A DNA stretch of 64,000 nucleotides from Dryocola clanedunensis subsp. sulfonylureivorans. Its GTDB lineage: Bacteria; Pseudomonadota; Gammaproteobacteria; Enterobacterales; Enterobacteriaceae. Shown here piece by piece: positions 42,250 to 58,812 of this stretch. The stretch is taken from positions 186,001-250,000 of the forward strand of contig NZ_JAERMU010000007.1 of the NCBI RefSeq assembly GCF_016756775.1. The letters run 5' to 3'. Under the pieces are notes generated by a model. The model was not told the DNA's origin. It ran no database searches and saw only the letters and a list, made by a program, of their open reading frames with translations. How positions within the stretch are numbered: position 1 is the stretch's first letter; every line of letters begins with the position of its first letter. The translations under genes were made by a program, and so were the position numbers.

Positions 42250-43035
42250 TTACCAGCAAACAAACCCGCCATCCACGACCAAATCAACGCCGGTACAAAA
42301 TGATGCGGCATCGCTGGCCAGGAAGATAGCCGGGCCCGCCATCTCTTCAACTTTTGCCATGCGCTGAATGGGCGTCTGACTTTCAAACTCTTTCGTCTGG
42401 TGCACCATCTCCGGCCTGGTATTCATCGGTGTCGCCGTATAACCCGGACTGATGGAGTTAACGCGGATATTTTTGCTCACCCATTCCATCGCCAGGCTTT
42501 TGGAGAGGTGAATCACACCCGCTTTCGAGCTGTTGTAATGCGCCTGTTCCAGACCTCGATTGACGATAATTCCCGACATGGAAGCGATGTTAATGATGGA
42601 GCCGCCGCCGCTTTCCAGCATCAATTCCGCCTCGGCTTTGCAGGCGTTCCATACGCCCGTCAGGTTGATGTCGATCACGCGCTGCCACTGCTCTGCCTCC
42701 ATTTCCAGTGCCGGATTGGCATTAGCAATGCCCGCGGCGTTGACGGCAATGTCCAGACGACCGAAATGACTTTTTGCCTGCGCCATGGCTTCACGCAGAT
42801 CGCTCAGTTTGCGTACGTCGCCGACGAACAGGCAAGCCTTCTGGCCCATAGCCTGAACGGCGTCCACCGTTTCATTCAGACCCTGGTCTTCGCGGACATC
42901 AAAGCAGACGATATTTGCGCCGGCACTCGCCAGGCCGCAGGCAATCATCTGTCCAATACCGCTGCCTGCACCCGTGACGAAAGCGACCCGACCCTGGAGG
43001 TTGAAAAGCTGCTGTGAGAAATCTTTTGCGATCAT
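42250..43035 (-). CDS. Short-chain dehydrogenase, sugar/polyol type (SDR 1)
   Basis: A classical SDR of 261 residues: cofactor site TGAGSGIG, NAAGIANA, catalytic S and the HYNSSKAG motif (Y and K four apart). The acidic residue in VCFDVRE after the second strand points to NAD. It ends the operon that starts at the kinase. It probably oxidises a polyol or sugar to a ketose, or reduces in reverse; the substrate is not known. Confidence 0.85.
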   Translation of the reverse strand: MIAKDFSQQLFNLQGRVAFVTGAGSGIGQMIACGLASAGANIVCFDVREDQGLNETVDAVQAMGQKACLFVGDVRKLSDLREAMAQAKSHFGRLDIAVNAAGIANANPALEMEAEQWQRVIDINLTGVWNACKAEAELMLESGGGSIINIASMSGIIVNRGLEQAHYNSSKAGVIHLSKSLAMEWVSKNIRVNSISPGYTATPMNTRPEMVHQTKEFESQTPIQRMAKVEEMAGPAIFLASDAASFCTGVDLVVDGGFVCW

Positions 43036-43083
43036 GTGTATTCCTTTTCCGCTGCTTTGATAAATGAAGGGGCATCTTTGCCC

Positions 43084-43881
43084 TCAGGACATAATCAGTC
43101 CGCCATCCACATTAATCGTCTGGCCGGTGATATAGCGCGCATCGTCAGAGGCCAGAAATGCCACCAGTCCTGCAACATCTTCTGGTTTACCTGCCCGCTT
43201 GAGTGGGATGCCCTCAACCCATTCGGCCATCAGCTCACCTTTGCCGTAGCGTTTGGCGTCAGTGCTGAGAATTTCACCCCATACCCGGTCGTTGTATTCC
43301 CACATTTCACTTTCGATAATGCCGGGGCAAAAGGCGTTTACCGTGATGTTAGAGGGAGCAAGTTCGTGGGCGAGGCTTTGCGTGATACCGATAACACCCA
43401 TTTTGCTGGCCGCGTAGTGGGGGGTATAAATAAAGCCCTGGCGGCCCTGGCCTGAAGAGGTGTTGATCAGGCGACCCTGATTTTGTTTGACCATATATTT
43501 GGCGGCTTCACGGCAGCACAGCCAGACGGCCGTCGTGTTCACGGCCAGCACCTTTTCGAAGTCAATTTTTGGCATGCTGTCAAAATAATCAATGGTGATA
43601 ACCCCCGCGTTCTGGATGGACACGTCAATGCGACCGAAGCGGGCGGCGGCCTGCTCGTACAGGCTTTGCACCTGGGCCTCATCCGTCACGTCCACCTGCA
43701 GGGAGAGGATCTCGGCCTGATAGCGCTTGCGCAGATCGTCTGCCGTTTCATGAATGCGCTCGGCGTTGGACACCATCACTACGTTTGCGCCATCCCGGGC
43801 AAAACGCTCGGCGATACCCGCGCCAATTCCCCGACATGCGCCGGTGATAACCACGGTTTGATGTTTAAAATCTCTGTTCAT
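43084..43881 (-). CDS. Short-chain dehydrogenase, sugar/polyol type (SDR 2)
   Basis: A second classical SDR of 265 residues, with TGACRGIG, QNAGVIT, NTSSGQGRQG and the HYAASKMG motif. It resembles sorbitol- and butanediol-type dehydrogenases more than SDR 1 does. The two share only the fold-level motifs, so they are not a recent duplication and probably act on different steps or stereochemistries. It lies 22 bases after the permease gene. Confidence 0.85.
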   Translation of the reverse strand: MNRDFKHQTVVITGACRGIGAGIAERFARDGANVVMVSNAERIHETADDLRKRYQAEILSLQVDVTDEAQVQSLYEQAAARFGRIDVSIQNAGVITIDYFDSMPKIDFEKVLAVNTTAVWLCCREAAKYMVKQNQGRLINTSSGQGRQGFIYTPHYAASKMGVIGITQSLAHELAPSNITVNAFCPGIIESEMWEYNDRVWGEILSTDAKRYGKGELMAEWVEGIPLKRAGKPEDVAGLVAFLASDDARYITGQTINVDGGLIMS

Positions 43882-43903
43882 TTCTCTCTCCTGAATTTTC
43901 TGC

Positions 43904-44971
43904 TTAGCTCTGAGTCGGCTGGGATGCTGACGGTATAGCCGCTTTTTCTTCGTGGCGGCGCATCAGAATCACTTTGTTTTGCAGGCGCTGCTGGAATTGA
44001 TCGACGATCACCGCCGTGACGATAACCAGACCTTTGATCACCATCTGCCAGAAATCGCTGACGCCCATCATCACCATGCCGTCAGCCAGGAAGACGATGA
44101 CAAAGGCGCCTATGATCGATCCCGTGACCCGGCCACGTCCTCCTGCCAGCGCGGTGCCGCCCAGTACGGTGGCGCCGATGGCGTCCATCTCAAACATGTT
44201 GCCGGTCATCGGGTGTGCCGTTTGCAGCTGCGATGCCACAATCAGACCGACCAGCCCGGCACAAAGACCCGAGAAGGCATAAACGAAGATTTTGGATTTG
44301 ATGATCGGCACACCGGCCAGGCGAGCGGCTGATTCATTGCCGCCGATGGCGTAGATGTAGCGGCCCAGCGGCGTTTTGGTGGTCAGCCACAGGCTCAGCA
44401 GAAGGAAGCCGACCATCAGCCAGATAGGAATATAAATGCCGAGCAACGAACCAGATCCCAGGATCGAAAAGCCGGTATTGCCCAGCGCTTCCATACCATT
44501 AAGGTTGGCGTAGGTGCTACCGTCGTTGAATAACAGGGCGGAGCCGCGCGCGACATACATCATGCCCAGGGTACAAATAAAGGGCGCAACGCCAAAACGG
44601 GTGACGACGGTGCCATTAACAAACCCGATCAGAATGCCGAAGACGGCGACGATCAGAATCACTTCCGGCACGTTGAAGAAGATGATGGAGCCATTCCATA
44701 AAGGCAGACCGTTGGTTAACAGTGCGCCCGCCACCATGCCGCAGATCCCGGCGACGGCCCCCACGGAGAGATCGATTCCCCCGGTCAGGATCACAAGCGT
44801 CATACCAATAGCCAGCAGCCCGGTAATGGCGACGTGCTGAGTCATGATCAGCAGATTGGAGGTGGTCAGAAAGTTAGGCACCATCACGCTGAAAAAGATG
44901 ACGACAAGAAGAAGTGCGATAAACGTTCTCGCTTTCAGCAGGTACATATACAACATATATTTCTGGTTCAT
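43904..44971 (-). CDS. Sugar ABC transporter permease (RbsC type)
   Basis: A 355-residue inner-membrane permease with about ten spans. Family marks are LVILTGGIDLSVGAVAG and the cytoplasmic loop GGNESAARLAGVP. It is longer than E. coli RbsC (321) because of a charged C-terminal tail. With the ATPase and binding protein of the same operon it forms a CUT2-type importer. Confidence 0.9.
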   Translation of the reverse strand: MNQKYMLYMYLLKARTFIALLLVVIFFSVMVPNFLTTSNLLIMTQHVAITGLLAIGMTLVILTGGIDLSVGAVAGICGMVAGALLTNGLPLWNGSIIFFNVPEVILIVAVFGILIGFVNGTVVTRFGVAPFICTLGMMYVARGSALLFNDGSTYANLNGMEALGNTGFSILGSGSLLGIYIPIWLMVGFLLLSLWLTTKTPLGRYIYAIGGNESAARLAGVPIIKSKIFVYAFSGLCAGLVGLIVASQLQTAHPMTGNMFEMDAIGATVLGGTALAGGRGRVTGSIIGAFVIVFLADGMVMMGVSDFWQMVIKGLVIVTAVIVDQFQQRLQNKVILMRRHEEKAAIPSASQPTQS

Positions 44972-44989
44972 GAGCAGCTCCTGCCTGAA

Positions 44990-46534
44990 TTAGTCTTGAG
45001 GGGTTGAAGCGGTAATTAACCGTTCACGAGTGATCTGCTGGCGGGACAGATCGGCGGTAATACGCCCGTCCGCCATGACCAGAATACGGTCGGCCAGCGC
45101 CATAACTTCATCAAGCTCAGAGGAGGAAAACATCACCGCCAGCCCCTGGTGGGCCATGCGGCCAATCAGATGATAAACATCCGTCTTAGCCCCTACGTCG
45201 ATGCCTCGCGTTGGTTCATCCAGCAGGACGACCTGTGGATTGGTCATCAGCGCTTTGCCCAGCACAACTTTTTGCTGATTGCCGCCGCTTAACGAGGTAA
45301 TCGGCAGTCCGGCATCGCTGACCTTGATCGCCAGCTCCTTAACCATGCTTTTAACGCGCTCCTGTTCCTTGTGGGGGTTGAGCCATTTCCACGCACGTCG
45401 AAACCCCTGGAGGCTAAAATCCGAAAGCGTCATATTGGACTGGATAGACATCATCTGGATGACGCCTTCGCCCTGACGATCCTCCGGCACCAGCGCCAGC
45501 CCTTTTCTTAGCCTCGCCTGGAAGGAGGCTTTATAAATATTTTCACCGTTCAGATGAATAGTGCCCTGTTGGCAGGGCATCAGGCCTATCAGCCCTTTAA
45601 ACAGTTCGGTGCGTCCGGCACCCAGCAGGCCATAAATTCCGATGACCTCGCCTTTATGCAGGCTAAAACCAACGTTGTTCAGCTTATAGCCGCCGCTCTG
45701 ATGCAGGGCGGTCAGTCCTTCAACTTGCAGCACGCATTCGCCCTGGGATGCAGGCTGATAATCGAAATGTTTTTTCTTATCCCCGACCATCTGCTCGATG
45801 ATCCATGGAATGCTGGCATCGCTAACGTTGCGCTCAGAGATAAAGCGTCCGTCGCGGAAAATAGTGATGTTGTCGCCAATTTCCATCAGCTCTTCGAGGC
45901 GATGCGAAATGTAAATGATGGTGACGCCCCGGCGTTTGAGCTGCTCAATGACGTTGAAGAGGATTTTCACCTCGGACTGGCTAAGCGCTGAGGTTGGTTC
46001 ATCCATAATCAGCACACGAGTGTCCTTCGACAGCGCGCGGGCAATCTCCACCAGCTGCTGGTGGCCAATACCCAATTCACCCAGCGGTGTGAGCGGATCA
46101 ACGTCCAGCTCCAGCCGTTCCAGCAGACTTTTCGCCAGCTGATACTGCCAGGCTTCGTTGATGCGTCCACGCTGGAAAACTTCGTTGGCAATAAAAATGT
46201 TGTCCATCACATTCATATTCGGGAACAGGTTCAGCTCCTGAAAAATAATGCTGATGCCGTGCTTTTCCGCTTCATGGGTGGAGCCGAGCGTGACGGGTTG
46301 ACCATCAAGAAAAATCTGCCCGGAGGAGGGGGTCTCAACGCCCGCCAGCATTTTCATCATGGTCGATTTTCCGGCGCCGTTCTCGCCAATCAGCACGTTG
46401 ACTTTGTTGCGATAAACCCGGTAGTTGACGCTATCGAGCGCCATCACGCCGGGATATACCCGCGAAAGCTCACGAGTCTCAATGATGACTTCCGGCTCGT
46501 CTTGCTTGCCTTCCGGCAGCGCTGAATTAGCCAT
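44990..46534 (-). CDS. Sugar ABC transporter ATPase (RbsA type, two domains)
   Basis: A 514-residue double ATPase of the RbsA/MglA group. Domain 1 has Walker A GENGAGKST and VLIMDEPTSAL; domain 2 has a degenerate Walker A (GLLGAGRTE) and a good LSGGNQQKVVLGKAL signature with LLDEPTRGIDVG, the usual asymmetry of the family. It lies 18 bases before the permease. Confidence 0.92.
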   Translation of the reverse strand: MANSALPEGKQDEPEVIIETRELSRVYPGVMALDSVNYRVYRNKVNVLIGENGAGKSTMMKMLAGVETPSSGQIFLDGQPVTLGSTHEAEKHGISIIFQELNLFPNMNVMDNIFIANEVFQRGRINEAWQYQLAKSLLERLELDVDPLTPLGELGIGHQQLVEIARALSKDTRVLIMDEPTSALSQSEVKILFNVIEQLKRRGVTIIYISHRLEELMEIGDNITIFRDGRFISERNVSDASIPWIIEQMVGDKKKHFDYQPASQGECVLQVEGLTALHQSGGYKLNNVGFSLHKGEVIGIYGLLGAGRTELFKGLIGLMPCQQGTIHLNGENIYKASFQARLRKGLALVPEDRQGEGVIQMMSIQSNMTLSDFSLQGFRRAWKWLNPHKEQERVKSMVKELAIKVSDAGLPITSLSGGNQQKVVLGKALMTNPQVVLLDEPTRGIDVGAKTDVYHLIGRMAHQGLAVMFSSSELDEVMALADRILVMADGRITADLSRQQITRERLITASTPQD

Positions 46535-46536
46535 GG

Positions 46537-47157
46537 TTATTGCCCCCCAGCGCGACGAATTTGTACCGGTGTGATAGCCGGCAGGGTGTCAGGGATGTCC
46601 CAGGTGGAGACGACGCCATAAATCTCGCGCGTTTCGCCGACCTTGATCTGCGCTTTCTGCACCATATTCACGGCCTGGTCGTTGATTGCCCTGCCGTACT
46701 CACCGAACAGAACCTGATCGTTAAAGTCCTGATAAGTCGTGCCTTTAAAGCCATCGCGCAGCTGGGTGCCGCGAATAGTCGGGCCAATCTGCACCACGAC
46801 GTTCGCACCGCTTATGTCCTTGAGCGTTAGCTTCCCGCTACGGGAAGCGGTGTTAATATCCACCACCTGTCCTACGGCTTTAACGTAGAAAACACACGGG
46901 TACTGATCCTGCGAGCGGTAGCCGAGCTTCTGGCAGGCCGTGTCGAAATCTTTTTCCTGGTGAAGGGCCTGCAGCAGCTCGGCTACCGGCCGTGCGTCCT
47001 GAATGACCTGCGGCACCAGCTTTTGTTTCCAGCTCTGAGCAACTGCCGCCATATGCGGGTTGGGCGGCGACTGCAGATCGGCCAGTTCCTGCTGCGACAC
47101 GATACGACAGCCACCGAGCGCCAGCATGGCCGCGGCAAGCCATATTTTTCTGGTCAT
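46537..47157 (-). CDS. DUF2291 family lipoprotein
   Basis: A 206-residue predicted lipoprotein: signal MTRKIWLAAAML and lipobox LGGC (C17), with a GGAGAAGG ribosome site before the ATG at 47157. The domain is that of DUF2291, which recurs beside CUT2-type sugar importers (from memory, including rhizobial tetritol loci). Its role is unknown; it may help the binding protein or permease at the periplasmic face. It sits between the binding protein and ATPase genes, so it is probably part of the importer. Confidence 0.82.
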   Translation of the reverse strand: MTRKIWLAAAMLALGGCRIVSQQELADLQSPPNPHMAAVAQSWKQKLVPQVIQDARPVAELLQALHQEKDFDTACQKLGYRSQDQYPCVFYVKAVGQVVDINTASRSGKLTLKDISGANVVVQIGPTIRGTQLRDGFKGTTYQDFNDQVLFGEYGRAINDQAVNMVQKAQIKVGETREIYGVVSTWDIPDTLPAITPVQIRRAGGQ

Positions 47158-47201
47158 AACCTTCTCCTCTGCGCCCTTATGCAGGGCGCGACTGCATAGC
47201 A

Positions 47202-48137
47202 TCAGGACTTAAAGTTGAAATCTGAGACTTTGTCCGCGTTCTCTGGGGTGATCAGGATGCCGCGGAACATCACTCTCTGTTTCTGCGGTTTTTCATTTTT
47301 TTGCAGGTAATTATCGAGGTCGGTCACGCCCTGAGCCGCAATGGCCTGAGCCTGAAGCATGACGGTTGCCTTAAGCGTCCCGGCCTTAACGGCATCGCGC
47401 TCTTCATTACTGCCATCAATGCCTGCCACGATGACATCATTGCGGCCCGCGGCTTTCAGGGCGGCAATCACGCCCAGCGCAACGGGCCCGTTGCCACAGA
47501 TCACGCCCTTCACATCGGGGTGCGCCTGAAGAATGCTGTCCATGATGCGTTTACCATCAATCAGCGTCCCTTTGGCATCTTGTCTGGCGACGCTGGTCAT
47601 GTCCGGGTACTGATCGATGACCTGGTGGAAGGATTTGGAACGGGTCACGCAGTTGTTGTCTGCGAGGTTGCAGGTCAGTTCGGCGTACTTGCCTTTTTCA
47701 GCCATTTTCTCGACGAAGGTATTGGCAACTTCTGAACCTGCCTGGAAGTTGTTGTGCGTGATCTGCACCAGCGCTACGTCATCAACGGGGATTTCACGGT
47801 TGATTAGCACCACCGGAATACCGGCGTCTTTGGCTTTTTTGATTGCCGCAACGCTCGCCGTTGAATCCGCGTTATCCAGGATAATGCCCTGAATTTTCTG
47901 GCCAATAGCGCTGTCGATTAACTCATTTTGCTTTTTAACGTCCTCGCCGTGGGAGAGGATAGTCGTTTTATAGCCCAGCGCCTGAGCCTTCTGGCTGGCG
48001 CCTTTCGCTTCCGAGGCGTAGTAAGGATTGTCCAGGGAGTTGACCATGATCATGATGGTGCCTTTTTCTGCGGCGCTGGCCGCCAGAGATAAGGCGCTGA
48101 GGGTGGCGATGGTGAGCAGTTTTGTCGGTAATTTCAT
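47202..48137 (-). CDS. Sugar ABC transporter periplasmic binding protein (RbsB type)
   Basis: A 311-residue cluster B binding protein with a signal peptide ending SLAASAAE. The RbsB-like fold is seen in IMVNSLDNPYYASEAKGA, GIILDNADS and AGIDGSNEERDAV. Two cysteines close together (TCNLADNNC) may form a disulphide. The ligand cannot be read from sequence; the gene content suggests a polyol or an unusual pentose or tetrose. Confidence 0.9.
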   Translation of the reverse strand: MKLPTKLLTIATLSALSLAASAAEKGTIMIMVNSLDNPYYASEAKGASQKAQALGYKTTILSHGEDVKKQNELIDSAIGQKIQGIILDNADSTASVAAIKKAKDAGIPVVLINREIPVDDVALVQITHNNFQAGSEVANTFVEKMAEKGKYAELTCNLADNNCVTRSKSFHQVIDQYPDMTSVARQDAKGTLIDGKRIMDSILQAHPDVKGVICGNGPVALGVIAALKAAGRNDVIVAGIDGSNEERDAVKAGTLKATVMLQAQAIAAQGVTDLDNYLQKNEKPQKQRVMFRGILITPENADKVSDFNFKS

Positions 48138-48218
48138 AACGATGTCCTCTCTATATAGTTATTTTGGGTACAGCGAAAACTCGTGTTTTTGTCCGGCCCG
48201 GGGTTTTGCCTGGAGAAG

Positions 48219-49739
48219 CTAAGCGACGGGCGGCGACGTTTTTTCTAAGGTTCGTTCAACGGCATGACGCCACTCATGCCAGCGTTTTTGCAGACGCCCG
48301 TGGCGTTGCATATCAGGATGGAAAGTACTGTGTGCCGAGACATAGCTTTTCATCTCTGCCTGCGTCATCGGGCTGAGGGCTTTACGGGCCAGCAGGGCGG
48401 CCCCAATGGCCGACAGCTCCGGTATGTCGCTACGCATGACCGGGCAGCCCAGCAGGTCCGCCTGATACTGCATCAGCCAGTCATTACAGGTTGGGCCACC
48501 GTCAACCATCAGTGCGGAAAGGGTAAAGTCGCTATGCTGGCGCATGGCGAGCACGACGTCGGCAATCTGATAAGTAATTGATTCCAGCGCCGCGCGGATC
48601 AGATGCGCCCGCTTAACGCCCCGGCTTAAGCCGCAGATAAGTCCGCGGGCATTTTCGCTCCACCAGGGCGCGCCCAGCCCGGTCAGCGCGGGAACAAAAT
48701 AGACGCCAAGCGTTGAGTCAACGGAGGCGGGCAGGGTCGTCAGCGCGTCGGCCAGCTCATCTTTCGACAGCGCATCCAGCCCGGTCATGTCGACCATCCA
48801 GGCGACGGCGTCTCCGGTATGGGGAATGTTGCCTTCCAGCCCGAATACCATTGTCTGTCCGTCATGCCATGCAATGGTGGTAGCCAGCGAATCGATATTG
48901 CATTGTGCCGAAGTGACCGGCGCCATGACCGAAGAGCCGGTGCCGTAGGTGGCTTTGACGCGGCCCAGTTCGCCCATGGCGTGACCAAAAAGCGCAGCAT
49001 GAGAATCGCCAACCATTGACATGATCGGGATGCCGTCAGGGATCTCGTTCAGGCCTGCGGTATACCCGAACAGGCCGCTGGAGGGGCGGATATCCGGCAG
49101 GGCGGCGCGGGGGATGTGGAATATTGTCAACATTTCGTCGTCCCAGCCGGCCTGCTGTAAATTCAGCAGCTGGGTGCGGGCGGCGTTGGAGTAATCGCAG
49201 GCGAAAGCCTTGCCCTGGGTCAGGTTCCACAGCAGCCAGCTGTCGATGGTGCCCAGACAGATTTCCCCCTGTTCTGCCAGCGCAAAACCGTTGGGGACGG
49301 ACTCCAGCAGCCAGCGCATTTTGGATGCGGAAAAGAGGGGCGCGACGGGTAAACCCGTTGTGGCCTTGATATGGGCTGCCAGATTGTCACGACGCAGTCC
49401 TTCGCAGAAGTCGGCGGTACGTGAGCATTGCCAGGTGATAGCAGAAGTCAGAGGCTGGCCGCTGCTGCGATACCAGCCGATAGCCGTTTCGCGCTGGTTG
49501 CTGATGGCCAGCGCGGCCACCCGCTCAGCCCCAACGTGCGCTATGGCCTGGGCGATAACCTGTACGGACGCCGCAATCAGCATTTCGCCGGATTGTTCAA
49601 CCCAACCCTCTCGCGGAGTCTGAATCGTCAGGGCCTGCGAAAATTTTGCAATAACGTTCCCATGACCATCCAGCGCCACGGCTTTCGCATTGGTTGTCCC
49701 TTCATCAAGGGCGATAACAATATCTTTCAAACCCGACAT
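48219..49739 (-). CDS. FGGY-family carbohydrate kinase
   Basis: A 505-residue kinase of the glycerol/xylulose kinase family. The N-terminal phosphate loop ALDEGTTNAKAVALD, the NQRETAIGW and ITWQCSRT motifs, the substrate-region TYGTGSSVMAPV and the C-terminal ATP-site VDGGPTCNDWLMQYQADLLG are visible. I chose the ATG at 49739, with AAAGGAT upstream; the longer frame extends into the control region. It is the first gene of the seven-gene sugar operon and probably phosphorylates the ketose made by one of the dehydrogenases. Confidence 0.88.
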   Translation of the reverse strand: MSGLKDIVIALDEGTTNAKAVALDGHGNVIAKFSQALTIQTPREGWVEQSGEMLIAASVQVIAQAIAHVGAERVAALAISNQRETAIGWYRSSGQPLTSAITWQCSRTADFCEGLRRDNLAAHIKATTGLPVAPLFSASKMRWLLESVPNGFALAEQGEICLGTIDSWLLWNLTQGKAFACDYSNAARTQLLNLQQAGWDDEMLTIFHIPRAALPDIRPSSGLFGYTAGLNEIPDGIPIMSMVGDSHAALFGHAMGELGRVKATYGTGSSVMAPVTSAQCNIDSLATTIAWHDGQTMVFGLEGNIPHTGDAVAWMVDMTGLDALSKDELADALTTLPASVDSTLGVYFVPALTGLGAPWWSENARGLICGLSRGVKRAHLIRAALESITYQIADVVLAMRQHSDFTLSALMVDGGPTCNDWLMQYQADLLGCPVMRSDIPELSAIGAALLARKALSPMTQAEMKSYVSAHSTFHPDMQRHGRLQKRWHEWRHAVERTLEKTSPPVA

Positions 49740-49874
49740 ATCCTTTCTCCCGATGAAACGTGATCCAGCTGCTTTGAGGAGGCAAAGTCCCTTATTTGAG
49801 CTGCTCTGCAGCAGACTGCACTTTATGCCGTTACCCGATTTCATCGTCGGTATAGGGGGTCTTTGCTGTCCACT

Positions 49875-49888
49875 TGAATATATATTCG
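49875..49888. promoter_or_regulatory. Candidate SorC-regulator operator 1
   Basis: TGAATATATATTCG differs by one base from the perfect palindrome found upstream of the regulator gene itself. It lies about 140 bases before the kinase ATG. Confidence 0.6.
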
Positions 49889-50067
49889 ATGCTGATTATT
49901 TATTTGATACCTTAGCGATATATCGTCTGCCGGGCTACTGGCAATATCGGCATTTGTGCTAAAAATCACAGTTCTTTTATTAATCAGATGTAGCGAGAGG
50001 GTAAAGGTAATGAGAGGGGAAAGTGGATGATTTCTTTATAATTGATTGAAAATTAACATTAAGTTAA

Positions 50068-50099
50068 CTCGCCTTTGTCGGGGAAAACACAAAGGCGAG
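50068..50099 (-). terminator. Hairpin after the SorC regulator gene
   Basis: An 11-bp perfect stem CTCGCCTTTGT / ACAAAGGCGAG begins 7 bases past the regulator stop. The following T run is weak. Confidence 0.65.
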
Positions 50100-50106
50100 C
50101 GGCCGA

Positions 50107-51057
50107 TCACTCTTTAAGCAATAACCTTGCCGAAGGGTAATCGGTGATAAGCACGTCGATATACCCCCCCGTCAGCGCACCTTTGATGGCCGCAACTTTC
50201 TCCGCGCCGCCTGCCAGAGCCACGACGTTAGGGCATTTCTTCACCTTTTCAAGCTCCATGCCGATAACCGGATCTTCTTCATTGCGTAACACCGCGTTGC
50301 CCTGTTTGTCGTAGTAATGCAGACAGATGTCCCCGACGGCGTTGCGCTCCGCCAGCATCTTCAGCATTTCGTCATGGTAGTAGTTATCCGAGGTTTTCAG
50401 CAGCTGCGAAGGCTCAAGGCTACCAATCCCGACAATGGCAATATCCACCTCATCGAAACGGGCGATAACGTCGGCAACATCTTTGCTGGCGACCAGGCGG
50501 TTTTTCTCTTCCATGGAGCCTTCAATGCTCTGCGAAGGCAGAAGCCAGGCTTCACAGTTCAGATGCTGGGCGAGGGTCTGGGTGAGGATGGTTGCCTGAA
50601 CGTTGCCGTTGGGTCCGACGCCGCCGAGCAGCTGAATAATGCCGCTGGCTTTTAAATTCTGGGTGTGGACGGCATCGACCATCGCGCGAATGGTCGAACT
50701 CCAGGAGGAGATACCAATCAAATCTTTAGGCCGTAAGCGTGTTTCGAGATAGTGCGCAGCGGCGGAGCCGATGGCGCGCTTGATCGCCGCGTCGCTCGCA
50801 TCTTCTTCGACATCCACAATCACGGCTTGCTTCAGGCCGTAGCGTTCTTCAATCCCTTTTTCCAGATTCAAAAAAATGTTTGAGGGCTGCACTACGCTTA
50901 TTTTGACCACGCCCTCTTTCTGGCAGCGGGTAATGGCCCGGGAGACGAAGGACTGGGAAAGAGAGAGTAACTCAGCGATATCAGATTGCTTACGCCCTTC
51001 CAGATAATAGAGCGTGGCAATTTTTACCAACAGGCGCTGTTCATCCTGCTTAGCCAT
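50107..51057 (-). CDS. SorC-family transcriptional regulator
   Basis: A 316-residue regulator with an N-terminal helix-turn-helix (LYYLEGRKQSDIAELLSLSQSFVSRAI) and a C-terminal sugar-phosphate-binding domain (IGISSWSSTIRAMV and VALAGGAEKVAAIKGAL). SorC, DeoR(Bacillus) and EryD proteins use this domain to sense a pathway phosphate intermediate. The ATG at 51057 follows GAGGAA. It lies between the leftward kinase operon and the rightward transketolase genes and probably controls both. Confidence 0.88.
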   Translation of the reverse strand: MAKQDEQRLLVKIATLYYLEGRKQSDIAELLSLSQSFVSRAITRCQKEGVVKISVVQPSNIFLNLEKGIEERYGLKQAVIVDVEEDASDAAIKRAIGSAAAHYLETRLRPKDLIGISSWSSTIRAMVDAVHTQNLKASGIIQLLGGVGPNGNVQATILTQTLAQHLNCEAWLLPSQSIEGSMEEKNRLVASKDVADVIARFDEVDIAIVGIGSLEPSQLLKTSDNYYHDEMLKMLAERNAVGDICLHYYDKQGNAVLRNEEDPVIGMELEKVKKCPNVVALAGGAEKVAAIKGALTGGYIDVLITDYPSARLLLKE

Positions 51058-51224
51058 ACAATTCCTCAATATAAATCAATTAAGTGCAGCCAGATGTGGG
51101 ACACATATTACCCGATCGGCGACGCCTGTTCAGCGTGACGGGACGCATATTTTTTGCCATTCCCTGCGAAGGGTGCTGGACAATTGAGCAAAAAGGAGAA
51201 CATACTTGAATAGTAAATTATATA

Positions 51225-51238
51225 TGAATATATATTCA
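51225..51238. promoter_or_regulatory. Candidate SorC-regulator operator 2
   Basis: TGAATATATATTCA is a perfect 14-base palindrome; a further half site (TTGAATAGTAAA) lies 18 bases before it. The position, 170 bases upstream of the regulator ATG, fits autoregulation. Confidence 0.6.
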
Positions 51239-51361
51239 CAGGCAATTTCGCGCTCCATAAGTGTGAGGTTGCCACGGGAATGACAGCGGGGGAGGCCAAC
51301 TTTTTCTGACATCATCCGATCGCCATACAGCCCGATCGCGCTGATTTTTTTTATCGCCATT

Positions 51362-51375
51362 GGAATAAATATTCA
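51362..51375. promoter_or_regulatory. Candidate SorC-regulator operator 3
   Basis: GGAATAAATATTCA matches 12 of 14 positions of operator 2. It lies just upstream of the transketolase ribosome site. Confidence 0.55.
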
Positions 51376-51403
51376 ATAATGAAATTAAATTCAGAGGTGG
51401 AAC

Positions 51404-52234
51404 ATGAATCCCTACAACTATGATGTTAGCCAGCTTGAGAAAGCGGCGCGGGCGGTACGCCGGCATATCATCAGACTTAACGCCAACAGCCCGGCCGGTG
51501 GCCACACCGGGGCCGATTTGTCACAGGTTGAGCTGCTCACGACCCTCTATTTTCGGATACTCAACGTTTCCCCGGATCGTCTGGATGATGACCAAAGAGA
51601 CATCTATATCCAGTCCAAAGGCCATGCGGTGGGATGTTATTACTGCGTGCTTGCCGAAGCGGGGTTCATTCCGGTGGACTGGCTGCAGACTTATCAGCAG
51701 CCAAACTCACATCTTCCGGGCCACCCGGTAAAACAGAAAACGCCCGGCGTGGAGCTGAATACCGGTGCGCTGGGACATGGTCTGCCCGTGGCCGTCGGGC
51801 TGGCGCTGGCTGCAAAGAAAAATAACAGCCCGCGTCGCGTCTTTCTGATTACCGGCGATGGTGAACTGGCGGAAGGCAGTAACTGGGAGGCGGCGCTGGC
51901 GGCGGCTCATTATGGCCTCGACAACCTCGTCATCATTAACGACAAAAATAACCTTCAGCTGGCGGGCGCAACCAAAGACATTATGAATACCGATCCGCTG
52001 GCGGACAAATGGCGCGCTTTTGGTATGGAAGTCACGGAGTGCGCGGGCAATGATATCGCCGCCGTGGTGACCGCCATTGAGCAATTAACCCAGAAAGGGA
52101 AGCCAAACGTGATTATTGCCCATACCACTAAAGGTGCCGGCGTCTCGTTTATTCAGGGACGGCCGGAGTGGCATCACCGGGTACCCAAAGGCGATGAAAT
52201 AGAACTGGCTCTGGAGGAACTGAAAGATGCGTAA
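51404..52234 (+). CDS. Transketolase-like protein, N-terminal (TPP-binding) subunit
   Basis: A 276-residue half transketolase. The thiamine diphosphate motif is clear: ITGDGELAEGSNWEAALAAAHYGLDNLVIINDKN (GDG to N), and HLPGHPVKQKTPGVELNTGALGHGL forms the substrate channel. Enteric TktA/TktB are single chains of about 660 residues, so this is a dedicated paralogue. It overlaps the gene for the C-terminal half by 8 bases, so the pair forms one enzyme. Split transketolases are known in catabolic clusters, for example apulose-4-phosphate transketolase. Confidence 0.9.
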   Translation: MNPYNYDVSQLEKAARAVRRHIIRLNANSPAGGHTGADLSQVELLTTLYFRILNVSPDRLDDDQRDIYIQSKGHAVGCYYCVLAEAGFIPVDWLQTYQQPNSHLPGHPVKQKTPGVELNTGALGHGLPVAVGLALAAKKNNSPRRVFLITGDGELAEGSNWEAALAAAHYGLDNLVIINDKNNLQLAGATKDIMNTDPLADKWRAFGMEVTECAGNDIAAVVTAIEQLTQKGKPNVIIAHTTKGAGVSFIQGRPEWHHRVPKGDEIELALEELKDA

Positions 52235-53168
52235 TGCAGAACACCTTGCGAACGTGATGGTGCAGGCCTTTATTGATGCCGTGGATCGTGGCGTTGACCT
52301 CGTACCGGTTGTGGCGGATTCAACATCAACCGCTAAGATTGCCCCCTTTATCAAAAAATACCCCGACAGAGTCGTGAACGTGGGGATAGCCGAGCAGAGC
52401 CTGGTCGGTATGGCTGCCGGGCTGTCGCTGGGGGGCAAAATCGCGGTGACCTGTAATGCCGCGCCTTTCCTCGTTTCGCGTGCCAACGAACAAATTAAAG
52501 TCGACATCTGTTACAACAATACCAACGTTAAACTGTTTGGCCTGAATGCCGGGGCAAGCTACGGGCCGCTGGCCAGTACACACCATGCGATAGATGATCT
52601 CTCTGTGATGCGCGGTTTTGGCAATATTCAAATCTTTGCGCCATCTTCCCCGCTCGAGTGCCGCAAAATCATTGATTACGCGTTGGCGTATCAAGGGCCG
52701 GTCTATATCCGCATGGACGGCAAAGAGCTGCCGGAATTATATGATGAAAGCTATACCTTCGTTCCCGGAGCGGTGAACATCCTGCGTGAAGGGCATGACG
52801 TGGCGCTGGTGGCGACGGGGTCTACCGTCCATGAAATCGCCGATGCTGCCGCCGTGCTCGCTGACGAAGGTATCCAGGTGAAAGTCATCGGCGTTCCTTC
52901 TCTTCGCCCATGCGATAGCGCTGCACTCATGCAGGTATTAAAGGACTGCCGCACGGTGATTACCGTTGAAGAGCACAATATCAACGGCGGGCTGGGCAGC
53001 CTGGTGGCTGAGGTGCTGGCTGAAAATGGCGCAACGGCCAGACTCAAACGACTGGGGATCCCGGACGGCAGCTACGCAGCCGCAGCCGACCGTCGCTTCC
53101 TGCGCCAGTACCATGGTTTTGATGCCCAGAGCATCGTCGGGCTGGTCAAAGAGATGAGCCAGAGCTGA
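52227..53168 (+). CDS. Transketolase-like protein, C-terminal subunit
   Basis: The 313-residue partner with the Pyr domain (FPFxxRVVNVGIAEQSLVGMAAGL type: here DRVVNVGIAEQSLVG, whose glutamate activates TPP) and the transketolase C-terminal domain (VALVATGSTVHEIADAA, then EEHNINGGLGSLVAEVLAENG). It begins inside the last codons of the N-terminal subunit gene, so translation is coupled. A hairpin terminator and a dispersed element follow. Confidence 0.9.
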   Translation: MRNAEHLANVMVQAFIDAVDRGVDLVPVVADSTSTAKIAPFIKKYPDRVVNVGIAEQSLVGMAAGLSLGGKIAVTCNAAPFLVSRANEQIKVDICYNNTNVKLFGLNAGASYGPLASTHHAIDDLSVMRGFGNIQIFAPSSPLECRKIIDYALAYQGPVYIRMDGKELPELYDESYTFVPGAVNILREGHDVALVATGSTVHEIADAAAVLADEGIQVKVIGVPSLRPCDSAALMQVLKDCRTVITVEEHNINGGLGSLVAEVLAENGATARLKRLGIPDGSYAAAADRRFLRQYHGFDAQSIVGLVKEMSQS

Positions 53169-53322: not shown

Positions 53323-55428
53323 TCAGTCCGGCAAAACGGCCAGCACATCCTGTAAAGACGCTGCCTTTAGCATTTGTTGCAGCATGCTGTCGTCGCTTAT
53401 CAAATCATTCAGGGCGCTCAGCAGCGGAATGTGTGACAGGTTTGCAGCAGGCACCAGAATAATGATGAGCCGCGGAGTGACCTGGTGGGTGCCGTTGTCG
53501 AACTGTAGCGGCTGTTTTAGCTTCAGCAATGCCAGTGCAGGGGCGGCCAGGCCAGGCGGCGGCGCGTCATGCAGTAATAACACATCGGGCGAGAGATACA
53601 TTGTCAGGCCTGATTTTTCGATGTGGGCAATAATCCCTTCGGCATAGTCAGACGTGATGACACGTTGATCGACCAGCGGTTTTGCCGCTTTGCGCACCGC
53701 TTTTCGCCATTCGAGCGTTTGAGCACAATATTGCACACGACCATGGAGATGCCCGGCAAGCGATCTGCATTGCGGGAGTGCTTCTCCGCCAGAGGCCTGG
53801 TGCAAATAGCGTTGCACTATGCCGCTGAAATCCTGATGGAGCGCCTCTTTCATCTGCGGCGCGTAATTTGCCGCCGCAGCGACCAGCGCGTTAACCAGCT
53901 CATGCTCCAGAACGTTATCGTTCTTACTTTCCAGCACGTTTCGGAGCTGGATCTTCTCATTTGCGCTAAGCATGTGCTGAACAAGCACGTGATGAACGCC
54001 GTGTAACTTTTCCCTGGGAAGGGCAATGCTGCTGACCACCAGCCGGGTATGGGCCGGCATCGGCTGGGCCATAAATTTGCTGTAAGAGAGGTGGCGAATA
54101 TCCAGCGGCAGCACCGTCAGATTGCGCAGCTGATTTTCAAGTATGGCGGTGGACGATACGCCGCCTTCGGTGACCAGCAGCACCGCCTGTTCGCCGGTTT
54201 CCGGCTTGCGGTCGAGCCAGGCGGCAAAACTGATGGTGATATAGCTCAGCTCATCATCATTGAAGGCGACCTGATACTCCGCTTCAAGCTCGGTAATCGC
54301 CTGCTGGCACAGCTGAAAAATTAACGGATAACGCTGGATAACATCGTCTCGCAGCACGTTTTCGCTTTTTATATTGAATAAGCAGCGGTGGATGGCAGGC
54401 CCAAGATGTGAGAAAAGCCGCGCCACCAGATTCGAAACGTCAGAAAAATAGACGCCAGAGAGAGACTGAAATTGCTCAACAAGTCGCTGAATGCAGGAGG
54501 TCAGACGCTTATCTTCCGCACTGTCGCCAGGAGTGCTGGCAATTTTTTTGCTGACGGAAAGCAAGAGCGTTAAAAACAGCGTATTCCCCGCAATCTCCCC
54601 AATATTAAGCAGTTCGGACAAACAGTTATTGAGCGAGGCGGCGGCCCAGCATTCAGGCTGGCTACGCAGCGCGTTTATCTGCGCGGCAGTGAATTCAACA
54701 TAGTGGCCCTGCAAGGTATCCAGCAGGCTGAACATCATCATGTACAGCAGCAGCCGCTTATCTTTATCGCTGAACACGCAGTTCAGATGGCTTTCCGCCT
54801 GGTCAATGGCAAAGACAATGGCGCTTTTGACCTTGTCCGTGCATAACCCCTGTTCTGTCAGGTGCTTGCGCAGAACCTGTTCCACTCTTATTTCCACCTG
54901 GGCCTGAGCATATTTCAGCGAGCGCTGAAGCATCTGGTGGATGCACAGGCGCAGCTCGAGCTGACCGCCCGTGATGTGATAACCCTCTTTTTTACTGACG
55001 CTGAGCGTCAGGCCATGCTGCTCCTGTAGCGCCGACTTCAGGGTGCTGAGGTCGTCGAGCGTTGTGTTGCGGCTGACATTATTAAGCTTGCTGAGCTGCT
55101 GGGTTAACAGAGGAAGGTTTGAGCAGGCGATGTTTAACAGAAGGTGGTTGCGACGCTCCTCGGAGCATAATTTGTAGCCCTGTTCGTCAAGGCTTGCCAG
55201 ATGGTTAAGAATGGATTCGACTTCCTGTTCCTGCAAACTCAAGCCCTGATGCCCGTCAACCCGCAGAGCTGAGAATCCGGCGTGGACCAGCCAGTCGTCG
55301 ATTTTTTTCCGGCGGTAGTAAAAGTTACGCTGCGGCAGATCTAACCTCTCGCACAGCGCACGGAGGGTCAGGCCCGGTTCGGCGGCCACTTTTTTGATGA
55401 TATCAACGGCAAGGTGATCCAGCTGCAT
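53323..55428 (-). CDS. PRD-containing transcriptional regulator (BglG/MtlR type)
   Basis: A 701-residue regulator of PTS operons. It has an N-terminal helix-turn-helix (LTLRALCERLDLPQRNFYYRRKKI), a second DNA-binding segment, two PTS regulation domains at about 180-390, an EIIB-like part and a C-terminal EIIA-like part. The EIIB-like loop reads VTEGGVSSTAI and lacks the phospho-cysteine; a histidine is kept in the EIIA-like VLLLHDAPPPG. The ATG at 55428 follows AAAGGAT. As last gene of the operon it probably activates it in response to the transport state of the EII proteins. Confidence 0.85.
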   Translation of the reverse strand: MQLDHLAVDIIKKVAAEPGLTLRALCERLDLPQRNFYYRRKKIDDWLVHAGFSALRVDGHQGLSLQEQEVESILNHLASLDEQGYKLCSEERRNHLLLNIACSNLPLLTQQLSKLNNVSRNTTLDDLSTLKSALQEQHGLTLSVSKKEGYHITGGQLELRLCIHQMLQRSLKYAQAQVEIRVEQVLRKHLTEQGLCTDKVKSAIVFAIDQAESHLNCVFSDKDKRLLLYMMMFSLLDTLQGHYVEFTAAQINALRSQPECWAAASLNNCLSELLNIGEIAGNTLFLTLLLSVSKKIASTPGDSAEDKRLTSCIQRLVEQFQSLSGVYFSDVSNLVARLFSHLGPAIHRCLFNIKSENVLRDDVIQRYPLIFQLCQQAITELEAEYQVAFNDDELSYITISFAAWLDRKPETGEQAVLLVTEGGVSSTAILENQLRNLTVLPLDIRHLSYSKFMAQPMPAHTRLVVSSIALPREKLHGVHHVLVQHMLSANEKIQLRNVLESKNDNVLEHELVNALVAAAANYAPQMKEALHQDFSGIVQRYLHQASGGEALPQCRSLAGHLHGRVQYCAQTLEWRKAVRKAAKPLVDQRVITSDYAEGIIAHIEKSGLTMYLSPDVLLLHDAPPPGLAAPALALLKLKQPLQFDNGTHQVTPRLIIILVPAANLSHIPLLSALNDLISDDSMLQQMLKAASLQDVLAVLPD

Positions 55429-55474
55429 GCGCGATCCTTTCAAATCCGGCGCCGGAGCGCCGGTAAACTCTGAA

Positions 55475-56542
55475 TCAGAGGAATGAAGGGAACGGCAAAT
55501 CAGTTTCCGCTTCAAAAATATCCGGGAAGCCGCGAGGGTGTTGATAAACGCGGCGATCTTTATCCTGAGGATAAACAAATTTACCGCCGGGCTGCCAGAT
55601 GAAAGGCACAAAGTTGTATTGCAGGCGGTGACGGCGCATTTCGAAAAGCGTCAGAATTTCATTGGTATCCGCCATCATGTTACACCAGATATCGTGATGG
55701 AACGGGATCATCACCTGAGTGCGTAAGGCCTCTGCCATGCGCAGGATATCCACCGAGGTCATTTTGTCGGTGATACCGATCGGGTTTTCACCAAACGATC
55801 CTAACGCCACGTCGATTTGGTTCTGTTTGCCGTGCTGGGCATACATATTGGAATAATGTGAGTCGCCGGAATGGTAGATATTCCCGCCCGGCGTTTTGAC
55901 CAGATAATTGACGGAGCGGAGATCCATGTCGGGGATCTCACGGCCTTCATCGGCCAGCGGTTTCGGCGGCTCGGTGATCAGGATGGTACGGTCCGACGAC
56001 TCCAGCACCAGAATCTCCATATCTTTGATTTTTACTACATCGCCTGGTTTTACCACGCGGCAGCGGTCGGCCGGAACGCCCCATTTCATCCACAGATCGA
56101 CGCACGCCTGCGGCCCGATAAACGGCACGTCATCTTTGCAGTTTTTAAGCACGGCGGCAGCCACGTTAATATCGATATGGTCGGCGTGATAGTGCGTGGA
56201 AAGCACGGCGTCGATCTCACGAATGGAGAAGGGATCAAGAACAAACGGCGTGCTGCGCAGATTCGGCTGGGCAATGCGCGCCCCGCTCATACGCGCCATC
56301 TGGTGGCTCGGCTTCATGTCTGGCAGATCTTTCTTGCGCTTCCCGGTGCCGCACCAGAAGTCGATGCTGATGTTGGCGTTACCCGACGTTTTGATCCACA
56401 TGCCGACGCAGCCCAGCCACCACATGGCTACCGATCCTGCGGCGACCTGCTCGGCTTCGATTTCATCATTGAGCCAGGTGCCCCACTCGGGGAAGGTGTT
56501 TTGTACCCAGCTTTCACGTGTGATCTCATTTACATTGCTCAT
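55475..56542 (-). CDS. UlaG-like metallo-beta-lactamase-fold lactonase
   Basis: A 355-residue protein close to E. coli UlaG, L-ascorbate-6-phosphate lactonase. The metal motif is THYHADHID (UlaG THDHNDHID), with further ligands in [10 protein letters not shown] and IPFHHDIW. Differences lie in the middle part ([19 protein letters not shown]). By family it opens a phosphorylated lactone brought in by the PTS. It lies between the PRD regulator and the UlaD-like gene, 9 bases after the latter. Confidence 0.87.
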
Positions 56543-56551
56543 TCTTCTTCC

Positions 56552-57190
56552 TTAATTTCTTGTGGATTTAGCGATAGCTTCAAAACTCAGCGCCGCACCC
56601 CGGCGGTCTTGCGCATTCAGAATTGCCCCGCCGACGATGGCGATTGCAGGCTGTAGCTGCTCTTTTATGGCCGGCAGGGTGCTGAGGTTAATTCCACCAG
56701 CCAGCGCCATCGTTAAGCCGCAGGCCTCGTTGACGTCCAGAAACTCACGGAAAGCCTGCTGCGGATCGTCTCCGCAATCGGCGTTTTTGTGGACGCACAG
56801 ATGCGTTGCGCCAAGCGCTTTCAGCTCGCGGGCGCGCTGTACCGGGTCGGGAACGGATTGCAGGTCAAACACCACGGTGGCGTTATTCTGTCTGGCAATC
56901 GCCAGCACTTTGCTGACGGCGGTGTCGCTGGCGACCGCCAGCATGGAGTAATACTCGGGCAGACACTGCGCCATCAGCGAGGCTTCCCGCTCCGGGCCAT
57001 CAATGATTTTCATATCGAGAAACAGGGGCTTGTCCGGGCAGATCGCGCGGATCTCTTTCACGATGGCAATGCCGCTGTGTTTAAGCAGTGAAGTGCCCAC
57101 TTCAATAATATCCACATGTGGCCCCGCTTCCCGGACAACGTCCAGCGCTTTGCGAGGGTCTAATAAATCAAGTGCCAGCTGAATTTTCAT
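56552..57190 (-). CDS. 3-keto-L-gulonate-6-phosphate decarboxylase / hexulose-6-phosphate synthase family protein
   Basis: A 212-residue barrel of the orotidine decarboxylase suprafamily (UlaD, SgbH, HPS). The start ALDLLD, the glutamate of IIEVGTSLLKHSG and the metal/catalytic DMKIIDG (D-x-K-x-x-D) are present. These enzymes decarboxylate 3-keto-L-gulonate-6-P or, as HPS, condense formaldehyde with ribulose-5-P. The UlaG-like gene and UlaA-type PTS favour the decarboxylase. The ATG at 57190 has AAGGAG upstream. Confidence 0.85.
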   Translation of the reverse strand: MKIQLALDLLDPRKALDVVREAGPHVDIIEVGTSLLKHSGIAIVKEIRAICPDKPLFLDMKIIDGPEREASLMAQCLPEYYSMLAVASDTAVSKVLAIARQNNATVVFDLQSVPDPVQRARELKALGATHLCVHKNADCGDDPQQAFREFLDVNEACGLTMALAGGINLSTLPAIKEQLQPAIAIVGGAILNAQDRRGAALSFEAIAKSTRN

Positions 57191-57207
57191 CGTCAACTCC
57201 TTCACAG

Positions 57208-58509
57208 TTACACGACAAGGCCAAAGGCTGTGCCGATAAGTTTCAGTAGATACAACAGCGGTAGCCAGACCAGGCTGAAGTCAATATTCGAGAACATCAG
57301 GCCGGAGCCGTAGAGCGAGCCCATCATTGGGTAGAGCAAGATCACCCCGGCGTGGGCGATAACGCTGGTGATAAAGCCCGCGCCTAACGCGCCTTTATAG
57401 CCACCGTATTTATTGCCAAACACGCCCATGGTGCAGCCGTCGAAGAACATAATGATCGGGCTGGGGAAGACGATAATCGGGCTTTTCAGCAGGATAGTGG
57501 CCGCGGTGACCACCAGCGCACCTGCCACGGAGGCGATAAAGCCGAGCATGGCTCCTGTTGGTGAGTAGGGGAACAGCGCGGGGCAATCGAGGGCCGGGAC
57601 GGCGTCCGGTAGCAGGCGATCGGAGATCCCTTTAAAAGCGGGAACAATCGAGCCGATAAACATTCTCACGCCAATCAGCAGGATGACGACACCGGCGGTA
57701 AAGCTCAGACCCTGCATCAGCAGCCAGACAACCCAGTTGGTTTTACCGCTCAGTTCAGTAATGCCCTGTGCGCCTACCGAGAAACCGATGCCGAGGAAAA
57801 TCAGCGGCATCAGGAAGGCCAGCGAGATGGTGTTATCGCGAAACATCGACAGAAAGCCCGGCAGCTTCAGCTCTTCAGCATCCTGCGACGGACTGCCGAA
57901 CAGCGGGGCAACCTTGCTGGCGAGCCATGCGCCGACCTGCTGGTTATGCCCCAGAGTGAGATCGTCGCCGATGAAGTGCTGGCCCAGCTTGCGGGTAATG
58001 GCCGGCGTCAGCGTCCAGTAGAGGCCGCAAAGTATCGCCCCGGTCAGAATCAACGGCATGCCTGACAGACCAAGCGCACCCGGTAAAGCGAGTACCATAA
58101 ACGTCGCCAGAAAGAGCTGGATATGCACCGTCAGATACACGTTTTTGCAGCGTTTGAACGGGATGATGTAAACGAAAAACAGATGGAAGATAAAGCCAAG
58201 AATAAAGGTGAGCGTGACATCATTGGCGAGTTTTAACATCGCTACGCCAAACGCTGCTTCATTCGCTGGCAGCACCCCATGGATGCCGAGGGTCGTATTA
58301 AGCTGTCCCATTATGGGCGACAGCGATTTTAATAATGTCCCCGACCCGATAGTAATCACCAGCAGCCCGACGATTGTTTTTACCGTGCCATCGATAACTT
58401 CACTGGCTTTTTTGCGCTGCAGCATTAAACCAAACAGCGCAATAATGCCGAGGAACAAAGGAGCTTTGTCCAGTATCTGAAAAATAATAAAATGGATAAT
58501 ATCAGTCAT
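57208..58509 (-). CDS. PTS EIIC component, ascorbate (UlaA/SgaT) family
   Basis: A 433-residue permease with about eleven membrane spans, of the UlaA/SgaT family, for example LLVITIGSGTLLKSLSPIM near the N-terminus and PALDCPALFPYSPTGAMLGF in the second half. AGGAG stands 9 bases before the ATG at 58509; a GTG one codon earlier is also possible. It moves and, with EIIB, phosphorylates the substrate. It is shorter than E. coli UlaA (465). Confidence 0.87.
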   Translation of the reverse strand: MTDIIHFIIFQILDKAPLFLGIIALFGLMLQRKKASEVIDGTVKTIVGLLVITIGSGTLLKSLSPIMGQLNTTLGIHGVLPANEAAFGVAMLKLANDVTLTFILGFIFHLFFVYIIPFKRCKNVYLTVHIQLFLATFMVLALPGALGLSGMPLILTGAILCGLYWTLTPAITRKLGQHFIGDDLTLGHNQQVGAWLASKVAPLFGSPSQDAEELKLPGFLSMFRDNTISLAFLMPLIFLGIGFSVGAQGITELSGKTNWVVWLLMQGLSFTAGVVILLIGVRMFIGSIVPAFKGISDRLLPDAVPALDCPALFPYSPTGAMLGFIASVAGALVVTAATILLKSPIIVFPSPIIMFFDGCTMGVFGNKYGGYKGALGAGFITSVIAHAGVILLYPMMGSLYGSGLMFSNIDFSLVWLPLLYLLKLIGTAFGLVV

Positions 58510-58811: not shown

Positions 58812-58812
58812 T

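Follow-up and report, generated by a model that had tools for sequence, protein, structure and literature searches.

Ten genes at positions 42250–53168 of a 64,000-nucleotide stretch of DNA from Dryocola clanedunensis subsp. sulfonylureivorans (the whole stretch is called the window here) are a D-apiose catabolic cluster of known kind, with a substrate that has been published for close relatives. Apiose is a branched sugar of plant pectin and plant glycosides, and the cluster is explained as a means for the host to use it. The reading that we favour, with a probability of roughly 0.55, is that of an AplK/AptAB-type D-apiose operon whose aldose isomerase step falls to a pair of short-chain dehydrogenases (SDRs), named SDR1 and SDR2. 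A first-pass annotation of this DNA had listed the genes and their layout, and all of them were found there as intact frames, with three start sites (kinase, DUF2291 lipoprotein and regulator) corrected by the lengths of the Escherichia coli and Klebsiella proteins. The family of each was confirmed with Pfam (NCBIfam was also run): two SDRs, a BPD_transp_2 permease, a double ATP-binding cassette (ABC) ATPase, DUF2291, Peripla_BP_4, an FGGY_N/C kinase, a SorC-type Sugar-bind protein, Transketolase_N, and Transket_pyr with Transketolase_C. Kinase, binding protein, DUF2291 lipoprotein, ABC ATPase, permease, SDR2 and SDR1 follow one another leftward from 49739; the SorC regulator (50107–51057) lies on the same strand as the kinase, and the split transketolase runs rightward (51404–53168). 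The features are the following.

42250–43035, minus strand: SDR1, short-chain dehydrogenase, proposed apiitol 2-dehydrogenase (NCBIfam PRK06114, 491 bits, cut-off 360)
43084–43881, minus strand: SDR2, short-chain dehydrogenase, proposed D-apiose (apiitol-forming) reductase (Pfam)
43904–44971, minus strand: permease of the CUT2 ABC importer (Pfam, NCBIfam)
44990–46534, minus strand: ATPase of the CUT2 ABC importer, with two ABC domains (Pfam, NCBIfam)
46537–47157, minus strand: DUF2291 periplasmic lipoprotein (frame opens at 47202, likely start 47157)
47202–48137, minus strand: periplasmic sugar-binding protein with altered pocket (best solved relatives 5ibq/4ry0)
48219–49739, minus strand: FGGY kinase of the AplK type, proposed apulose 4-kinase (frame opens at 49844, likely ATG at 49739, 506 residues)
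49875–49888, no strand: operator palindrome TGAATATATATTCG in the kinase upstream region (one mismatch to TGAATATATATTCA)
50107–51057, minus strand: SorC-family regulator (start corrected to 51057)
51225–51238, no strand: operator palindrome TGAATATATATTCA between regulator and aptA (exact)
51362–51375, no strand: third operator-like site GGAATAAATATTCA, directly upstream of aptA (two mismatches)
51404–52234, plus strand: AptA-type transketolase, thiamine diphosphate-binding half (Pfam, homologue identity)
52227–53168, plus strand: AptB-type transketolase, pyrimidine and C-terminal half (8-base overlap with aptA)

The link to apiose comes from close relatives. The first-pass annotation had called the set uncharacterised and had matched it to neither the tetritol nor the apiose routes. 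In fact, kinase and transketolase are those of the D-apiose trunk (aplK, aptA, and aptB), and the same ten genes have been published as a D-apiose cluster with a growth assay, which means that this very combination of genes has had a substrate assigned in close relatives (Royer et al., 2026; PMC13001218). There, the gene set of E. coli and E. fergusonii is described as a D-apiose degradation cluster with E. coli ST131 and ST14 among its carriers and is reported from 98 genera; the genes of E. coli SE15 are named aplK for the kinase and aptA and aptB for the transketolase halves; and strains of both species with the cluster grow on D-apiose, assayed at 10 mM, while K-12 does not. The same text states that the apsI gene of Pectobacterium is absent from the E. 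coli set, with "two putative oxidoreductases" in its stead, and already suggests these oxidoreductases as the replacement of the isomerase ApsI (Royer et al., 2026). Under the cluster rule given there (at least five of ten genes, including aplK, aptA, and aptB, within ten consecutive genes), the window holds ten of ten. Among the apiose papers listed, this was the sole one recognized as dealing with bacterial apiose catabolic genes, and a literature search returned nothing on apulose, apiose reductase or DUF2291 and nothing related for EC 1.1.1.114.

The set is also conserved by genome neighbourhood, the same ten genes being found in the same order in E. coli and Klebsiella. The window kinase is 78% identical to that of E. 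coli and 77% to that of Klebsiella, and AptA and AptB are 77–87% identical to both; the E. coli genome compared was G749, with the published reference SE15 outside the comparison. Among 5,426 E. coli genomes, blastn detected the kinase–regulator–aptA stretch in 717. An AplK-type kinase beside a split aptA–aptB transketolase, the arrangement by which an AplK/AptAB-type D-apiose cluster is recognized, is present in the window, and the AptA alignment keeps G151, D152, G153 and N182 among its invariant columns. Window AptA is 78–80% identical to that of the Pectobacterium and Brenneria clusters with a PF01261 isomerase (L070, L071, and L084). In addition, the trunk is tied to apiose because apiosidase-type genes (PF13204, or at least 40% identical to such a protein) lie near the trunk or its isomerase in other loci: L072 and L151 have PF13204 proteins; L075, L127, L129, and L132 have proteins 94% and 40–42% identical to that of L072; and in L162 a FucI-like isomerase has such a gene (PF13204, 310 bits) and a transporter beside it.

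The proposed route would start with D-apiose, perhaps together with apiitol, taken in by the CUT2 importer. One SDR, probably SDR2, would reduce apiose at C1 to apiitol, and the other, probably SDR1, would oxidize apiitol at C2, its only secondary alcohol, to apulose; since the structure of apiitol offers one secondary alcohol, reduction at C1 with oxidation at C2 must give apulose. The FGGY kinase would then form apulose 4-phosphate, and the split transketolase would transfer the C1–C2 unit to glyceraldehyde 3-phosphate, with dihydroxyacetone phosphate and xylulose 5-phosphate as products. These last two steps are taken from the D-apiose pathway in which Carter et al. reportedly described them in 2018; the two redox steps and the import ligand are inferred. 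The outline agrees with that of the first-pass annotation (dehydrogenase, ketose kinase, C2-cleaving transketolase), and no isomerase, aldolase or epimerase family is the main Pfam hit of any of the ten genes, just as had been noted. The observation made there is confirmed and its interpretation partly supported.

The main evidence for the SDR pair in the isomerase step is its exchange with isomerases beside the trunk. Among 80 named loci (the best 80 of 509 relatives, with genome contigs scanned by the AptA alignment), 37 have a FucI-like isomerase only, 26 have SDR1 and SDR2, four have ApsI (PF01261), one has an RpiB-like protein, one has an SDR pair plus a FucI-like isomerase, and 11 have no such converter within reach, the isomerase class including distant loci at 26–30% identity and some loci being cut by contig ends (e.g., L059, L110, and G342). 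A search of 392 Enterobacteriaceae genomes (cut-offs 1e-70 for AptA, 1e-90 for SDR2 and 1e-90 for the FucI-like isomerase) gave 98 genomes with AptA, 50 with SDR2 and 47 with the FucI-like isomerase. Within 15 kb of 99 aptA places there was a FucI-like isomerase in 43, SDR2 in 41, neither in 15 and both in none, against about 18 expected if the two were independent. Of the 98 genomes with aptA, 49 have SDR2 and 47 the FucI-like isomerase, against one and none, respectively, of the 294 without it; these counts are phylogenetically structured, and p-values are descriptive. On a tree of aptA (87 rows) the converter label needs at least seven changes, counted with four states and unlabelled rows left out; the tree was made quickly, is rooted at the midpoint and leaves 32 of its 84 inner branches open, and loci cut by contig ends and labelled "none" enter its per-group counts. 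Because no place has both converters and the label changes at least seven times, the SDR pair and the isomerases are seen, by gene content, to replace each other repeatedly. The FucI-like protein encoded with aplK and aptAB (L046–L049, L065, L066, L077, L080 and others; 472 residues and PF02952 in L046 and L047) is likely a second, unrelated D-apiose isomerase, and the RpiB/LacAB-type protein (PF02502) that accompanies the same trunk in Marinomonas alcarazii (L082, 11822–12394) is a possible third isomerase family for the step.

For the 15 places with neither converter, 12 were fetched, and G393 and G268 are left out of the breakdown. A PF01261 isomerase lies beside aptA in G334, G179, and G093 and elsewhere in the genome in G373, G313, G115, G267, and G392 (G267 and the named locus L095 are apparently one assembly). 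A FucI-like isomerase is found elsewhere in G174 (L162), SDR2 is on another contig in G387 (one of the three places not fetched), SDR1 stands alone in G353, G235 has only the other kind of SDR1, and G342 is cut by the contig end. Some records deserve separate mention. The one named locus with both converters belongs to Vibrio salinus (NZ_JAJSDZ010000010.1, L081 and L089), where two apiose-type clusters, one of the SDR type and one of the isomerase type, stand side by side. The sole SDR2 among the 294 aptA-less genomes is that of G158 (L137 and L175), a remnant of importer ATPase, permease, SDR2 and SDR1 that by eye adjoins a transposase-like frame. Two loci titled Enterobacter cancerogenus M004 (L093) and Enterobacter ludwigii EnVs2 (L095) group with Pantoea on the aptA tree, and their names may be wrong. 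L042 (LR134125.1, "plasmid 5" of Klebsiella aerogenes NCTC10006) has many genes split within and outside the cluster, which looks like sequencing error, and some PLSDB "plasmids" resemble chromosomes (CP125156.1, 5.37 Mb).

Isomerases were also sought elsewhere in the genomes. The ApsI search covered 37 genomes, namely two positive controls, both of which matched, and 35 with SDR genes near aptA (24 with SDR2 within 15 kb of aptA and 11 with the SDR pair in the locus). A close ApsI was absent from 34 of the 35: G428 has a 36% relative, and the other 33, including the window's own genome, gave no match at 1e-30. The FucI-like isomerase was absent at 1e-90 from the 24 SDR2 genomes of the 392 set, and in the other 11 it was checked in the fetched DNA only. 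In the window's genome there was neither a FucI-like PF02952 match at 1e-90 (47 of 392 genomes did match) nor an ApsI match at 1e-30. A related idea, that trunks without an isomerase might be served by an unlinked SDR pair, was rejected. A Fisher test (9/14 vs. 5/43) looked favourable before copies of ApsI, 84–88% identical to that of Pectobacterium, were found elsewhere in 12 of the 15 genomes examined, not counting the control; the pattern is therefore not one of complementation, and it counts for the view discussed below in which the SDRs serve apiitol. In such genomes SDR2 was found elsewhere in seven of ten named ones tested (the exceptions being the genomes of L072, L075, and L082), and a FucI-like isomerase in 0 of 17, in a search that had no positive control.

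The two SDRs are more alike than the first-pass annotation had it. Two dehydrogenases are indeed present, described there as unlike; both are classical SDRs, with 85 of 244 aligned residues identical and the active-site Ser and YxxxK kept in the rows of both. In all 31 aligned rows of SDR1, beta-2 ends in an Asp, typical of NAD use, and the protein resembles many SDRs, galactitol dehydrogenase 2wdz being sixth in the list. Where SDR1 is replaced, the replacement belongs to the GolD/DthD family (one protein, from L053). Because of the galactitol dehydrogenase likeness and this GolD/DthD-type replacement elsewhere, C2 oxidation is given to SDR1, as a guess. A strict division into an NADPH reductase and an NAD dehydrogenase was considered and rejected, given the mixed cofactor residue of SDR2 (Ser, Asp or Thr) and the Tyr of the other kind of SDR1. 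As to the reduction, Neal and Kindel are said to have described in 1970 a D-apiose reductase of Aerobacter aerogenes (EC 1.1.1.114), which we take to be the enzyme of KEGG R03577; to our knowledge no gene has been assigned to it. The KEGG reaction converts D-apiose and NADH to D-apiitol and is reversible (KEGG R03577; PMC1686944).

Another shared element is the operator. The first-pass annotation had noticed an operator motif shared by the genes, and this was borne out: TGAATATATATTCA with up to two mismatches occurs only three times in the 64 kb of the window (51225–51238, 49875–49888, and 51362–51375), and ten simulated windows gave a mean of 0.0 hits. With up to one mismatch it is present in 61 of 80 related loci and has 0 hits in 84,712 bases of control loci. 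It is found in the SDR, FucI-like, ApsI, and RpiB-like classes of cluster, and the 19 loci that miss it are 15 FucI-like ones of other phyla, one with ApsI of Myxococcales and three of Pseudomonas. The SorC protein would control both transcription units by binding this palindrome, and the shared operator is consistent with co-induction of the cluster genes.

Several findings weigh against an SDR pair that converts imported apiose. The first concerns the binding protein, compared with that of apiose-type clusters at 15 pocket positions based on what we take to be the contact residues of RbsB. Eight positions separate all 29 window-type sequences from all 41 apiose-type ones: at S9, F15, F16, D89, S103, F164, F214, and Q235 (RbsB numbering) the window type has N, Y, Y, N, H, G, I, and L, and the apiose type P, F, F, D, S, W, F, and Q. 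A ninth position (I132) differs yet varies, and the remaining six agree. The solved relatives 5ibq and 4ry0 presumably come from Rhizobium etli, and the ligand of 5ibq, going by its title, is presumably apiose; against 5ibq the apiose-type protein of L046 scores 434 bits and the window protein 268, and the latter lacks the 5ibq-like pocket by which an apiose-type CUT2 protein is recognized. Such a pocket points to a different ligand or sugar form, so that the window's importer may have apiitol, or some other form of the sugar, as its main ligand. Besides, the window-type binding protein stands with SDR2 in 20 of 21 loci, the last being cut by a contig end, and the 39 loci with the apiose-type protein hold a FucI-like isomerase (28), ApsI (three), an RpiB-like protein (one), SDR2 plus a FucI-like isomerase (one) or none (six). 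Importer type is linked to converter type, a link that would not be needed if the same sugar were imported.

The second group of adverse findings concerns the SDR genes. There are 12 stand-alone modules (L139–L142, L148, L149, and L184–L189) with the other kind of SDR1, the window-type importer and SDR2, and without kinase or transketolase in the fetched stretch; a DeoR-type regulator is present in 11 of them, L140 giving no match. The genomes of 11 of the 12 have an isomerase, either FucI-like (G096, G169, G174, and G333) or ApsI at 85–88% (G267, G392, G417, G420, G421, G422, and G424), so apiose use there does not require the SDR pair; G416 is the one genome that lacks both at close range. 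In three loci scanned of the DeoR-regulated kind (L050, L053, and L139) the operator was not found at up to two mismatches. G133 has SDR2 beside aptA plus a close ApsI elsewhere in the genome, and G353 has SDR1 without SDR2. Some clusters have a different SDR, 33–35% alike, where SDR1 would stand, and in the type-B clusters this protein has Tyr at the cofactor position (5/5), and the cofactor position of SDR2 is not uniform (37 rows: Ser 32, Asp 3, Thr 2).

The strongest alternative, which we consider somewhat unlikely, is that importer and SDRs serve apiitol, or another branched C5 compound, and not apiose. SDR1 would then oxidize imported apiitol to apulose, SDR2 would interconvert apiose and apiitol or tune the redox balance, and the growth of E. 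coli on 10 mM apiose would be a side benefit of the shared trunk. The radically changed pocket, with W giving way to G at the F164 position, the importer type that tracks the converter type, and the stand-alone SDR modules in isomerase-bearing genomes all speak for it. So does a mirror image in G104 and G224 (L160 and L161), where an isomerase, a SorC regulator and an apiose-type importer occur without the trunk and the aptA of both genomes has SDR2 beside it (L144 for G104). On the other hand, one oxidation suffices for apiitol, yet SDR2 is present in 32 of 32 SDR1 loci (among 96 loci), and where the window-type importer is present SDR2 is at least 75% identical; one later locus outside these 96, L164, has SDR1 alone. 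Moreover, E. coli with this apsI-less cluster is reported to grow on D-apiose (Royer et al., 2026).

A promiscuous host isomerase outside the cluster, with the SDRs doing other work such as detoxification or salvage of side products, is an improbable explanation. The SDR activities are predicted from sequence, and the 10 mM apiose of the published assays (Royer et al., 2026) may let side activities suffice; nevertheless, SDR2 is nearly confined to genomes with aptA, it shares none of the 99 places with the FucI-like isomerase, and the converter has changed at least seven times on the aptA tree. Finally, a cluster for a different polyol or ketose that does not pass through apulose is very improbable, since a kinase that is generically glycerol-kinase-like and under every curated NCBIfam cut-off shown, and a binding protein with a pocket of its own, are outweighed by the AptA identity to PF01261-bearing Pectobacterium and Brenneria clusters, the SorC operator common to these classes, the apiosidase-type neighbours of the trunk in other loci and the published growth on D-apiose of E. 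coli carrying the ten-gene set (Royer et al., 2026).

We retain the apiose operon with an SDR pair in the isomerase step as the favoured reading. A fuller version of it can be put forward only tentatively: SDR1 and SDR2 would be a redox-coupled replacement of the isomerase, one of them would be the gene of EC 1.1.1.114, the pair would travel with an apiitol importer, and two exchangeable entry modules would feed one trunk. If reductase and dehydrogenase do stand in for the isomerase, an old reductase activity would gain its gene, and the use of apiose by Klebsiella, Citrobacter, and E. coli ST131 would be explained. Four unrelated families (SDR pair, FucI-like, PF01261, and RpiB-like) occupy one place beside a conserved trunk, presumably for the same step; if that is true, carbohydrate metabolism has here a clear example of modules being exchanged. 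What this analysis adds to the published suggestion is the exchange counts, the changed binding pocket and the stand-alone modules.

Next to the cluster, at 53323–59268 of the window, lies an ascorbate-type phosphotransferase system (PTS) cluster with a UlaG lactonase, a hexulose-6-phosphate synthase-like protein, PTS-like components (by eye) and a CsiE-like regulator; this regulator was not found in five other genomes of the genus at 1e-60. A clean empty site was found in none of six genomes of the genus, the left neighbour being present in two and the right neighbour only in the window's own.

Compared with known systems, the window is closest to E. coli G749, which matches it in all ten gene families, their order and their orientation, with protein identities of 65–89%, no apsI and two oxidoreductases, and to Klebsiella pneumoniae, where the ten-gene set follows the window's order at 64–91%. 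The chromosomal site differs, however: entD is the neighbour in both of these, and the ascorbate-type PTS cluster in the window. With the D-apiose pathway of Pectobacterium (apsI, aplK, aptA, and aptB), reportedly described by Carter et al. in 2018, the window shares kinase, split transketolase, SorC regulator, CUT2 importer with DUF2291, and operator. Pectobacterium L070 and L071 have a PF01261 isomerase, taken as ApsI by its place, where the window has two SDRs, and their binding protein is another one, 45–46% identical to the window's. The FucI-like variant of Citrobacter, Enterobacter, Yersinia, Mixta and others has the window's trunk, and the regulator is also common to most gammaproteobacterial loci, but a 472-residue PF02952 protein is found in place of the SDRs. 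Lastly, the D-apiose reductase of Aerobacter aerogenes, a Klebsiella-type organism, would correspond to the reductase step proposed for the window.

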